64,000 nucleotides of DNA. Origin: Candidatus Altimarinota bacterium. Its GTDB lineage: Bacteria > Patescibacteriota > Gracilibacteria > BD1-5 > UBA6164. Position 1 is the first letter of the stretch. Every line of letters starts with the position of its first letter. The stretch is taken from NCBI GenBank assembly GCA_943356435.1, contig CALREY010000001.1, positions 1 to 64,000 of the forward strand, in the 5' to 3' direction. Both the position numbers and the translations under genes were made by a program. Below, piece after piece: positions 4,111 to 24,218 of this stretch. The notes below the pieces were generated by a model. That model saw only the letters and a list, made by a program, of their open reading frames with translations, did not search any database and was not told the DNA's origin.

Positions 4111-5157
4111 TTATCCTTGATCTTTGAAGTAATTAATATAATCTGCTTCCTTTATCAATCATCTATCTCTCAATATTTCAGCATATTTTTGCATATGTAT
4201 CATTCAATAATTTGAACCTGTTTCTATATATGTAAACATTTGATTTATATTTCAGTTTCTTATCAAATTCTTTATTCAAGTATTTACTATCATTAATTCA
4301 AAGATTCATATTCTACCTCATCAGATTTTTGGAATAAGTCTTTGTGATAATACTCATTTTAATGATTCTGATAATTTTTCTCTCACTAATGGTTGAGATT
4401 CTATTGGGAAAAAACTAATCAATCTATTAACTGTTTGTATAGAACTAGAAGTATGTAGAGTAGATATAACTAAATGCCCTGTTTCAGCTAATTCTAATGC
4501 TGATTGTACTGTTTCTCTATCTCTCAGCTCTCATATCATAATAATATTTGGATCTTCTCTCAGTGACGATCTAAGTGCATCTCTAAAACTATTTGTATCT
4601 ATTCATACTTCTCTTTGTGAAAAAAGAGATTTCTTATCCTCAAATATAAATTCTACTGGATCCTCAATAGTAAGTATATGCTCTCATCTCTCACTATTTA
4701 TTTTTTCTAGAATTGAAACCATAGTTGTAGACTTACCTGCTCAAGTTGGTCAAGTAATCAAAACTAATCAACTTTTTAATTCAGTAAACAATTTAGTTGC
4801 AGGTGGTAATAATAATTCTTCCATTGTCATAACTTTGTTTGAAATTCTTCTCATAACAAAAGATATTTTTCATAGTCTAAAAAAGGCATTTACCCTAAAT
4901 GATACTCAATCAGTATGTACATAAGCGAAATCAAGCTCATGATTAATCAAAAACTTATTTATATTTTCTTTATTTGATTTCAATAATATTACAAGTATTT
5001 CTTTTATTTTTTGTAAATCAATAATTCAAAAAGAATCTACTATAGATAATACTCAATCTATTCTATAAGATATTTTATTAGTTTCAGAAATATGAATATC
5101 TGATGCATTATGTTTTATTGCATAATCAAATATTGATAATATAAAATCGTTATTCAT
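4111..5157 (-). CDS. pilT: PilT-type twitching motility ATPase
   Basis: 348 residues, the normal PilT size. An N-terminal PAS-like domain has SDIHI. Walker A GPTGAGKST is at about 136-144, followed by the Asp box TIEDPVEF, Walker B IIMIGELRDRET and the His box STLHTSS. The AIRNLIRE motif typical of PilT appears as VNTGIKNLIRNGNINQM. It powers pilus retraction at the cytoplasmic side of the inner membrane. It lies between two pilin genes on the same strand, but each gene has its own terminator, so a single operon is not obvious. Many Gly residues, including one in the Walker A motif, are TGA. Confidence 0.95.
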
Positions 5158-20398: not shown

Positions 20399-20773
20399 AT
20401 GGCTGAATTAAGTAAAAATGCTGCTCAAATTTTAGAGTTAGTTAAAGGTTTAACTATTGTTGAATTAAATGAATTAGTTTCTGCAATGGAAGAAGAATTT
20501 GGTGTTTCTGCTGCTGCTCCTGTAATGGTTGCTGCTGCTGGTGGTGATAGTGAAGAAGCTGTTAAATCAACTTTCAATGTTGAATTAACTAACGCTGGAG
20601 CATCTAAAATCGGTGTAATTAAAGTTATTAGAGAAATTACTGGTCTTGGTTTAAAAGAAGCTAAAGATTTAGCTGATAACGGAGGTACAGTTAAAGAAAA
20701 TGCATCTAAAGATGAAGCTGAAGAAATCAAAGCTAAATTAGTAGAAGCTGGAGCAACTGTTGAATTAAAATAA
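20399..20773 (+). CDS. rplL: 50S ribosomal protein L7/L12
   Basis: 124 residues. The N-terminal dimerisation helix ([20 protein letters not shown]), the Ala/Gly hinge ([14 protein letters not shown]) and the globular domain with [20 protein letters not shown] match L7/L12. Gly codons are all GGN, not TGA. It recruits translation factors as part of the stalk. The preceding 5' end is A-rich with no Shine-Dalgarno. Confidence 0.98.
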
Positions 20774-20778
20774 TTATA

Positions 20779-20806
20779 AAAAGCTAGATTAATATCTAGC
20801 TTTTTT
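20779..20806 (+). terminator. terminator of rplL
   Basis: AAAAGCTAGAT / ATCTAGCTTTTTT hairpin right after the stop. Confidence 0.85.
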
Positions 20807-20830: not shown

Positions 20831-20864
20831 AAAAAGAAGGCTTCTTTCAGCCTTCTTAATTTTT
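20831..20864 (-). terminator. terminator of the PEP-CTERM gene
   Basis: AAGAAGGCT / AGCCTTCTT stem with A-run and T-run, 16 nt past the PEP-CTERM stop in minus orientation. Confidence 0.6.
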
Positions 20865-20879
20865 TCTCCTTTTTTTTTG

Positions 20880-21488
20880 TTAGATTGCAACTTTTTTGAA
20901 GTGCAACGAATTTTTTTTGGTCATGGTGTAAAAACCAGCCAATCCGAGTAACAACAATGGAATGCTGCCAGGCTCAGGAACAGTTGACGTTTGATCTACA
21001 TATGGAGCAATATTTGCTCCTTTAACATAAATGTTATAGTCACCGGTCTCATGTTTAGAGAACGATCCTGTTGCATTTTGTGCAAAGGTAGCTGCCAAAG
21101 ACTTACGTTGTTGATGGTCATTCCAGTTTTCACTGCTGAATGCAGAGATAGTCAGGATGTAATTACCAACAAGGTTTGTCATTCTCAGACTTGAATCCCA
21201 GGCTTCTTGTAACACATGGTTCAAACCAGCATTTGCACCACCATATGTAGAGCCGTGATCGTCGTTCCATGCTATCTGATTACCTAATGAATCAAACAAT
21301 CCGAGAATTGGGTCAAACCCAGGACCAAAACTATCGGTCCAGATGTTCACTGTTGAAGGTGAAGTCACTGTGAATTGAATCGAATCATAATCTCCGCGGT
21401 TAAGCAAAGTACCATCATAGTTCAACGTTAATGCACTCGCTAACTGGCTAACCAATAGCAAGCTTACAGCAAGCATTATTTTTTTCAT
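20880..21488 (-). CDS. PEP-CTERM sorting domain protein, foreign in composition
   Basis: 202 residues. A Sec signal peptide (MKKIMLAVSLLLVSQLASA) and a C-terminal PEP-CTERM tripartite tail: VPEPGS, hydrophobic helix IPLLLLGLAGFYTM, basic KK. Such tails are processed by exosortase in Gram-negative bacteria. The body (GDYDSIQFTVTSPSTVNIWT, DPILGLFD, ISAFSSENWN) resembles the DVUA0089 group of PEP-CTERM proteins. No TGA occurs in frame although the protein has about 17 Gly, and its GC content is visibly higher than its neighbours'. No exosortase is seen in the window. It is probably a recent transfer from a proteobacterium-like donor, or an assembly join. Confidence 0.88.
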   Translation of the reverse strand: MKKIMLAVSLLLVSQLASALTLNYDGTLLNRGDYDSIQFTVTSPSTVNIWTDSFGPGFDPILGLFDSLGNQIAWNDDHGSTYGGANAGLNHVLQEAWDSSLRMTNLVGNYILTISAFSSENWNDHQQRKSLAATFAQNATGSFSKHETGDYNIYVKGANIAPYVDQTSTVPEPGSIPLLLLGLAGFYTMTKKNSLHFKKVAI

Positions 21489-21564
21489 CTAAATCTCCAA
21501 AATTTTGTTTTTGTTTCAACACGAATATATATATATTTACTCATTATTTCTAACAAGTAATTAC

Positions 21565-21591
21565 ATTATACATAAAATTTACAATTGTCAA
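21565..21591 (-). promoter_or_regulatory. candidate promoter of the PEP-CTERM gene
   Basis: On the minus strand TTGACA (21586-21591) and TATAAT (21565-21570) with a 15-nt spacer, about 75 nt before the start. Confidence 0.5.
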
Positions 21592-21659: not shown

Positions 21660-21733
21660 TCGCAATTCGCCAAGCGGTAAGGCCGAGGACTCTGAATCCT
21701 CTATCGTGGGTTCGAATCCCTCATTGCGAACCA
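21660..21733 (+). tRNA. tRNA-Gln (CTG)
   Basis: Acceptor TCGCAAT / ATTGCGA; anticodon stem GAGGA/TCCTC with loop CTCTGAA (CTG); T-arm GTGGGTTCGAATCCCTC; encoded CCA. CTG (not TTG) is an odd choice in so AT-rich a genome; a TTG tRNA must exist elsewhere. Confidence 0.95.
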
Positions 21734-21812
21734 TATAACACAAAGATTCGAAAGGAGGTTTTTGCAAAGCAAAATTTAATTGCGACGAATAGGAGCAATT
21801 AAAACGGATGGC

Positions 21813-21848
21813 CGACCCGAAGGGCGCCGAATCCCTCATTGCGAACCA
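21813..21848 (+). repeat. duplicated 3' end of tRNA-Gln
   Basis: GAATCCCTCATTGCGAACCA at 21828-21847 repeats the last 20 nt of tRNA-Gln (21714-21733) exactly, with a GC-rich flank (GGCCGACCCGAAGGGCGCC). The 94-nt gap between copies has no gene. This is the layout left by integration at, or duplication of, a tRNA 3' end. Confidence 0.85.
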
Positions 21849-21894
21849 TAAAAATAAAATATATTAAAATAAAATAATTAATTAATTATATATA

Positions 21895-22974
21895 ATGAAC
21901 AAAGCTCTATTCTGAATATCATCACTATGACTATGACATGCAACTAGGACTTTGGTAATAATTAATTATTACTTAGATAAGTGATATGAAATAGATATAA
22001 TTAGTTTTTGAAATACACTAAATTATCTAAAAATAGAATTAAATTGAAAAAAAATTAATTTTATAGAGCTAGAAGATTACCCTTTACTTGAAAGATGAAA
22101 TGGAATAAAATTCTATTATTATTTAATTCAAGATTTAATAAAAACAAATATAACAATTAGAAAAGAGAAAAAATTCATAAAAAACATAGATAATAAATAT
22201 GATTTCATATTTTCTGATGGTAGATATTGATTATATTCAAAAGAAATTCCATGCTTTTTGCTTACACATCAATTGTCATTTATAATGCCAAAAAGACTAT
22301 GATTATTTAAACTGATTAGTGATTTATTCAATTATTGGAATTTTAAGAGATTTACATTTATTTTTATACCAGATTATGAAAATATAAATGAATCATTGGC
22401 ATGAAAACTATCGCATCCAATACGGATTAATAAAATAAATCATAAATATATTTGAATATTATCATCATTTAACAATAATACAAATGATGAAGAAATAGAT
22501 TATTTATTTAGTATTAGTTGATATTTATTGGATGAAAAGAAAAAATTTATAGACAGATTGATAAATGAGGCTAAAACATTAAGTGGTAAAAAAGTATTTA
22601 TACTATGAGATACAAGTGAAAAATACATAAAAAATATAGAAAATAATATTACAATATATTCATTTGTTAACTGAGAAGAGAGAGAAAAATTATTTTTAAA
22701 ATCAAAAATAATAATATCTAGAACATGATACACTACAATAATGGATTTAGCAGAATTATGAAAAAAAGCTATACTATTCCCTACACAAAACCAAACAGAA
22801 CAAGAATATTTAGCAAGATATTTAAATGAAAATAAGCTATATGTAATATGAAGTGAAGAAAGTGAATTGAATAATCTAGTTAGTAAATTGGATAATTCAA
22901 ATATTTACAATCCAATACACAAATCACAAAAATCAATAATTGAAATAGACAATATAATTAATAAATATTTATAG
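21895..22974 (+). CDS. MurG-like glycosyltransferase (GT-B fold)
   Basis: 359 residues. The N-terminal GISSLGLGHATRTL is the GxGHxxR donor or acceptor loop of MurG/GT28-type enzymes. The C-terminal half has ISRTGYTTIMDLAELGKKAILFP then TQNQTEQ, the nucleotide-sugar binding signature. It is not MurG itself; the sugar and acceptor are unknown. It starts a three-gene operon with a DedA-like protein and a second glycosyltransferase. Confidence 0.85.
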
Positions 22975-22975
22975 A

Positions 22976-23554
22976 ATGCTTGAATATGCACTACATTTTT
23001 ACAATACCTATACTTCTATATTTTATATAATACTTTTTTTTGCTGTTATATTTGAGTGACCAATTACTATTCTAACTCTAAGTATCATAGCTCCTACTAT
23101 AAATATATCTATCCTAAGTGTTTATATTTTTGCATTTATATGAGAGTTATTATGAGATACATTTCATTATGTTGTATGAAGATTCTATAAGAAAAATTTT
23201 ACGAAAGACAAAAAATTTGAACTATTTGAAAAAATAGAATCAAAAATACGCGATGAATCAATATTTGAAAAATTATTAGTTATTAAATATACACCTCCGA
23301 TTACAAGTATCTGATTATTCTATTTATGATTTCAAAGAACAAATTTCAAAAAATTTTTACTAAGTATAACTATTTTTTGATTATTGAACTCTCTAATTAT
23401 CACATTAATTTGATATAACTTTTGAGTATATTTCGCAAACCAAGAAAGATTAGAATACATTGTAGCTTGAGTGATGTTTTGATTTTTGTTATTATATTTG
23501 CTTATTAGATTGATAAGGACTTACTTTATAAAAAACATATTAAATGGAAAATAA
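22976..23554 (+). CDS. DedA/VTT-type membrane protein
   Basis: 192 residues, starting 1 nt after the glycosyltransferase stop. Several hydrophobic helices; VIFEGPITILTLSIIAP at the N-terminus and GELLGDTFHYVVGRFY match the DedA (VTT) pattern of re-entrant helices. DedA proteins flip phospholipid or undecaprenyl-phosphate carriers, which fits the sugar transferases around it. The second conserved Arg-rich segment is weak. Confidence 0.75.
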
Positions 23555-24218
23555 AATACCAAAAACTATACATTATTGTTGGTTTGGAAGATGAAAAAAA
23601 TCAGAAAAAATAATGAAATGTATAGAATCTTGGAAAAAATATTGTCCAGATTATGAAATAATAGAGTGGAATGAAGATAATTTCGATGTAAATATTAACA
23701 ATTATGCAAAAAAATATTATCATAAAAAAGATTGGGCTTTCGTAGCTGACTATGCTAGAATGAATGTACTCTTTAATCATTGATGAATATATTTTGATAC
23801 AGATGTAGAAGTAATAAAAAATATAGATAATTTGCTATTTAATGAAGCATTTACATGATTTCAAGACAAATTCAGTATATGATGAGCAATATTATGATCA
23901 AAAAAATGAAATAAGATAATTAAAGAAATACTCGATTATTATGAAACAAAAAAAATTAAAACAATTCTACCAAATCTACTTAATAGAATATTTAAAAGAC
24001 ATACTAATCTAAAATATTGTGAAAATACTCAAGTAATAGAATGATTCAGTATTTATCCTAAAGAGTATTTTTATCCATATGCATACTATGAGAGAGCTCA
24101 AGATATGGAAATAACAAATAATACTTATACAATTCACCATTATGATGCTACTTGGTTACCAAAAATAGTAATAATTGTATTGTTTCCAATCATAGGATAT
24201 ATCTCGAAATATTTATAA
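23544..24218 (+). CDS. capsular polysaccharide-type glycosyltransferase (OCH1-like)
   Basis: 224 residues, overlapping the DedA gene by 11 nt. IPKTIHYCWFG at the N-terminus, ADYARMNVL and GGIYFDTDVEV with the DXD motif are those of the GT32-like sugar-binding family. It adds a sugar to a surface glycan or glycolipid; exact substrate unknown. The operon ends in the hairpin at 24232-24258. Confidence 0.9.

Follow-up and report, generated by a model that had tools for sequence, protein, structure and literature searches.

How a gene written in the standard code came to lie in the chromosome of a bacterium that reads TGA as glycine, and what its product might do there, is the question raised by an open reading frame located between rplL and tRNA-Gln in the analyzed window. 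The window is the whole stretch of 64,000 nucleotides under study and forms part of a 197 kb contig (G000:C1) of a 1.55 Mb genome (G000) that is 90% complete. A preliminary description of this DNA had reported, in the same place, a PEP-CTERM gene with a Sec signal, about 17 glycine codons and no TGA, flanked by promoter and terminator signals, and each of these elements was found again (Table 1).

The open reading frame is intact under the standard code, with 17 Gly codons and no internal TGA. The C-terminus of the protein, in which a PEP motif is followed by a hydrophobic helix and a basic end, scored above the curated cut-offs of both Pfam PF07589 (22.6 bits, cut-off 20.7) and TIGR02595 (22.7, cut-off 16). 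The body was assigned to the DVUA0089 family NF038127 (E 2e-19, 70.4 bits with a cut-off of 29), while its Pfam match was of the PPC type and weak. The best of the further profile matches, which included the flocculation protein PepA and FxDxF families, stayed below cut-off. The signal peptide was predicted on the basis of composition, as residues 1-20 make up the most hydrophobic stretch of the protein, after MKK and ending with LASAL. The AlphaFold model of the 202-aa protein was of low confidence (pLDDT 54) and the comparison with solved structures gave no meaningful match.

Table 1. Features of the PEP-CTERM gene and of its two flanks (positions in the window).
Feature	Position	Strand	Remarks
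PEP-CTERM / DVUA0089-family gene	20880..21488	(-)	202 aa, standard-code, TAA stop
Predicted Sec signal peptide	21429..21488	(-)	about residues 1-20 (MKKIMLAVSLLLVSQLASAL)
PEP-CTERM sorting tail	20907..20981	(-)	VPEPG, hydrophobic helix, basic residues
Shine-Dalgarno GGAGA	21494..21498	(-)	almost absent from native genes (2/105)
Sigma-70 type promoter	21565..21591	(-)	perfect TTGACA-15-TATAAT
Post-stop motif AAAAAGGAGAAAAAATT	20858..20878	(-)	adjoins the stop codon and precedes the terminator; Shine-Dalgarno-like (AAAAAGGAGAAAAATT)
Terminator hairpin with T-run of the PEP-CTERM gene	20834..20857	(-)	usable in either direction
rplL	20399..20773	(+)	native, one flank of the docking site; own terminator 20778-20805
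tRNA-Gln(CTG)	21660..21733	(+)	native, other flank of the docking site

The composition of the gene was compared with a reference set of 105 native open reading frames from the genus, in which 1727 of 2431 glycines (71%) are encoded by TGA. The GC content of the gene is about 0.41 relative to 0.25 ± 0.04 in the native set, and its GC3 of 0.37 exceeded the values of all 105 frames (0.14 ± 0.04, maximum 0.28). Given the native usage, the occurrence of TGA at none of 17 Gly codons has p ~1e-9. The native rplJ and rplL genes are, however, likewise TGA-free (13 and 11 Gly, respectively), but with GC3 of just 0.10 and 0.07. Because of these two genes, the missing TGA was dropped as a sole proof of foreignness.

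The same site was then followed in four congeners. In two of them, G380 and G381, the rplL–tRNA-Gln site is occupied by another PEP-CTERM gene of the DVUA0089 family, and the three site proteins of G000, G380 and G381 are pairwise 31-49% identical. Congener homologues scored 37.6 and 31.4 bits against NF038127. Between G000 and G381, rplL is 99% identical and the flanking proteins 82-99%, whereas the PEP proteins share only 34-38% (36% in the comparison with the flanking proteins). rplL and tRNA-Gln lie 886 nt apart in the window, and their spacing in G380 is 830 nt. It is 51 nt in G382 and 59-104 nt in four other, insert-free family members, and this short spacing in five family members was read as the empty docking site. 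No PEP-CTERM gene was found at this site in G379. In G381, the 1.5 kb examined contained no tRNA-Gln, and rplL is accompanied by a 47-aa AT-rich remnant, in which a signal peptide is fused to a PEP-like tail and the same flanking motifs are present. This remnant is an older, decayed copy of the PEP-CTERM gene.

Two congeners are listed as MAGs of Candidatus Gracilibacteria, each with an assembly of its own (JAQTXG and JAUXPL), and the SR1 label used in the preliminary description had to be abandoned. The same comparison bears on the alternative raised there, an assembly or binning chimera, in which a fragment of another bacterium would have been joined to the contig. A chimera would account for the sharp composition break over ~600 bases, but would need two joins within 900 bases. 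MAGs that were assembled independently have homologous yet non-identical genes in this place, and together with the AT-rich relic there this leaves a chimera hardly any probability and practically rules it out. Native homologues in relatives had been considered as well. The genus does contain homologues, yet these appear as foreign as the gene in the window and not native, which refutes a one-off transfer into the strain and not transfer as such.

Several elements of the flanks are shared between genes. The post-stop motif with its Shine-Dalgarno-like part is common to the tRNA-site genes of the congeners, one other paralogue and the relic, the genes being otherwise divergent; outside the window, its copies lie 3' of the PEP genes in stretches L052, L053, L051 and L004. 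The Rfam search of the flanks for structured RNA returned tRNAs only. In two tRNA-Gln-site genes, a perfect 14-bp palindrome, CAAATACGTATTTG, is located between the promoter and the start codon (L053, 5' of 8131, and L052, 5' of the gene 4143-4688), and possibly represents an operator. On the other side of the site, the 3' end of tRNA-Gln (CGAATCCCTCATTGCGAACCATA, 21713-21735) is exactly duplicated 115 bp downstream, at 21828-21850, and is followed by glycosyltransferase and DedA-like genes (21895-24218), which are missing from that place in G380 and G381. The repeat and the extra genes resemble the remains of an integration event at the tRNA.

Profile searches revealed a total of 12 sorting-tail genes in three species of the genus, nine of them beyond the rplL–tRNA-Gln trio. 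They are distributed over two shared sites and other places, with up to five genes per genome. The second shared site is flanked by a spermidine-synthase-like gene and by LysM genes. It is occupied by a tandem array of three genes in G381 and of two in G380, and G000 has a single gene there. This single gene (G000:C6:58046-58432) encodes a 128-aa protein with a VPLPA-type tail scoring below the curated cut-off; its frame stops at TGA, and the native reading of this codon as Gly would add 11 residues. The tRNA-site gene of G381 also ends with TGA, immediately followed by TAA. A third gene family occupies other places in G380 and G381. None of the three families was detected at strong scores in the other genomes of the family and order that were searched. 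Phage cargo was dropped as an explanation, as none of the families has viral or phage relatives.

The marks of foreignness extend to the whole set. TGA was observed at 0 of 216 Gly codons across 11 of the 12 sorting-tail genes, and their GC3 ranges from 0.21 to 0.39 in comparison with 0.14 for native genes. A Shine-Dalgarno sequence precedes all 12 genes and only two of the 105 native frames (Fisher p ~1e-14). Its near absence from native genes indicates that translation in the genus seems to be initiated without such a sequence; 16S, sought for the anti-Shine-Dalgarno, was absent from all five MAGs. Perfect sigma-70 hexamers, counted as a further foreign feature, were identified upstream of six of the 12 genes. 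No sigma-54 (-24/-12) site was found upstream of any of the 12, every candidate having at least 3 mismatches in 10 positions.

A view of the code in which these genes diverged was provided by silent Gly changes at aligned codons, counted in the tandem pairs G381 C37a/b and G380 C56a/b. All 23 silent swaps between the tandem PEP copies were of the GGN-GGN type and none involved TGA, whereas 72 of 85 silent swaps between native orthologues of different species involved TGA and 13 did not, the latter comparisons overlapping and their counts being non-independent. The tandem copies thus separated either while housed in a cell with the standard code or while selection forbade TGA. Together with GC3, the Shine-Dalgarno sequences and the standard-code stops, this result supports a foreign origin of the gene and reinforces the foreign composition noted in the preliminary description.

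Selection against TGA is part of another explanation, in which the genus made one ancestral acquisition, followed by vertical inheritance, very fast divergence and tandem duplication, with TGA avoidance and Shine-Dalgarno sequences being selected for strong expression. The same two sites are occupied in three species, and such placement could mean a single old acquisition with fast divergence. The highly expressed rplJ and rplL, being TGA-free as well, are also in agreement with this explanation, as are two elements common to G380 and G381 genes. The first is a 19-nt leader, AACATTCTTTCCTAGGAGA, present in five of these genes. A scan of genome contigs matched it in the two congeners and in one Nonlabens contig, which is about the number expected by chance, and the restriction of the leader to the genus counts against capture, as it would be odd if donors were common. 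The second is a covarying 3' hairpin found in four PEP-CTERM genes (L049:8420-8485, L049:9255-9320, L050:2299-2360 and L050:3163-3235), with the conserved core GCATT...TAATYGTC and both partners altered in 4 of its 11 pairs; no Rfam match was obtained for it. However, the low GC3 of rplJ and rplL means that expression fails to explain GC3 values of up to 0.39, TGA serves as a stop in two of the genes, and the PEP proteins of G000 and G381 have diverged far more than their flanks. A single ancestral acquisition was considered unlikely, and the TGA stops, the high GC3 and the codon swaps are more simply read as repeated entry from bacteria with the standard code.

Repeated entry could in principle also be neutral, with host DNA taken up constantly, genes present only briefly and PEP-CTERM genes having no role. 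On contig C6, ~3 kb from the VPLPA gene near the second site, a purM-like gene (L120:11834-12973, minus strand) has 33 Gly codons, all GGN with no TGA, a GC3 of 0.22 and the Shine-Dalgarno sequence GGAGG. These foreign marks indicate that capture was not limited to PEP-CTERM genes. The decayed copy in G381 and the presence of ComEC and pili in related bacteria are likewise compatible with passenger DNA. Against it, the PEP-CTERM gene stood alone as a foreign-looking gene across the 64-kb window plus 20 kb of adjoining sequence. In addition, members of this class, grouped in three families that share one function, turn up repeatedly at the same sites, and their frames, promoters and tails are intact. 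Passenger DNA was therefore regarded as improbable.

The absence of exosortase, reported earlier for the window, was found to extend to the whole genome and four congeners. The search for EpsH (PF09721) gave no match at E≤10 in G000 and none at E≤0.1 in the congeners, a result of a single profile applied to MAGs that are 81-96% complete, for which the control genomes constitute a weak test. The suggested transfer from a gammaproteobacterium-like host held with respect to foreign origin, but no gammaproteobacterial donor could be shown. A scan by exact peptides, which covered 84,980 species as well as viral contigs, phages and plasmids, detected no close relative. The best relative in the collections searched, of the DVUA0089 type, was 31% identical over residues 57-193.

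These observations are probably best explained by the repeated capture of proteobacterial-type matrix-protein genes at docking sites, with membrane-anchored surface products acting in adhesion to the host matrix. The gene in the window would be a captured single-gene cassette for an extracellular-matrix protein of the proteobacterial type, and in the best reading its capture was fairly recent. Cells of the TGA=Gly genus would repeatedly take such genes from bacteria using the standard code, probably their own hosts, and retain them at a small number of docking sites, among them the rplL–tRNA-Gln site and the intergenic site on contig C6, where resident copies would later be replaced, duplicated or decayed. 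The shared sites, the common leader and the covarying 3' hairpin suggest that newcomers replace or join residents, perhaps via recombination in shared flanks. A sigma-70 promoter, a Shine-Dalgarno sequence and a terminator of its own belong to each gene.

The predicted product would be exported by Sec and retained in the membrane through its uncut C-terminal helix, as the tail is expected to stay as a membrane anchor when there is no exosortase to cut it. Patescibacteria are regarded as lacking an outer membrane, and the displayed domain would thus face outward directly. A surface domain resembling the host matrix would aid adhesion to, or blending into, that matrix. In Proteobacteria, PEP-CTERM proteins are proposed to be cleaved by exosortase and then to become part of the extracellular matrix, with pepA involved in floc formation (PMC9850573, PMC1569441). 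The JAEDAM01 epibiont, one of the TGA=Gly Gracilibacteria, lives within clusters of Zoogloea, a floc former (PMC11393006). The epibiont in Zoogloea clusters and the floc-forming PEP-CTERM proteins favor a putative role in host-matrix adhesion. A far more speculative scheme, to which very little probability was assigned, would place the surface-protein cassettes in a two-way pool shared by epibiont and host, where selection for function in both cells would block adaptation to the epibiont code. A cassette of this pool would consist of a sigma-70 promoter, a Shine-Dalgarno sequence, a frame with no TGA sense codons and its own terminator, and would be kept readable in the standard code.

At the level of the phylum, 12 of 379 Patescibacteria genomes had TIGR02595 matches above the cut-off; within the class of the window, such matches were limited to this genus among the genomes sampled. 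In other Patescibacteria (stretches L106-L119), 8 of 12 PEP-CTERM genes had a higher GC3 than every neighboring open reading frame (p ~1e-6 under exchangeability, with several genes coming from one genome and protein composition uncontrolled). The PEP-CTERM gene L114:7437-8309 has a GC3 of 0.82 relative to 0.37 in its neighbors. Judging from such composition, other members of the phylum may capture matrix-protein genes as well. The case described here is that of a recoded, genome-reduced epibiont which would repeatedly gain one functional class, matrix or surface proteins, at fixed sites, and it offers a sequence-level clue to how such cells may attach to the host matrix or move within it. Matching cassettes to donors could be a route to finding hosts, and the Gly-codon swap test could serve as a simple clock for the entry of genes into a TGA=Gly genome. 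The occurrence of PEP-CTERM genes in the absence of exosortase also raises the question of whether an unprocessed tail can be of use.

The closest known counterpart is the PEP-CTERM/exosortase (EpsH) system of Proteobacteria, with which these genes share the signal peptide, the diverse body, the organization as single-gene units and the VPEP or VPLPA tail with a helix and a basic end. Unlike in that system, no exosortase was detected here and the host is a Patescibacterium; moreover, most proteobacterial PEP-CTERM genes have a sigma-54 promoter with a PrsR site, whereas the promoters found here are of the sigma-70 type. The DVUA0089 type gene is located on a Nitratidesulfovibrio vulgaris plasmid that also encodes an EpsH homologue (PMC1569441), of which there was no detectable counterpart in this genus. 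Orphan PEP-CTERM genes without EpsH are known from Chlorobium tepidum (PMC1569441) and are similar in having sorting tails and no detectable exosortase, but there two genes were read as a degenerate system, whereas here up to five genes per genome are intact and apparently renewed. Standard-code-compatible phages of Gracilibacteria and Absconditabacteria (PMC10746230) provide another parallel, since their DNA avoids in-frame TGA beside a TGA=Gly cell. The genes described here differ from them in being single chromosomal genes with no adjoining phage genes and no viral relatives. Finally, horizontally acquired genes of Patescibacteria (PMC12455944), for which uptake by pili and ComEC was proposed, are also foreign genes in streamlined genomes, but in the genus studied here one kind of gene reappears at set positions and turns over between close species.
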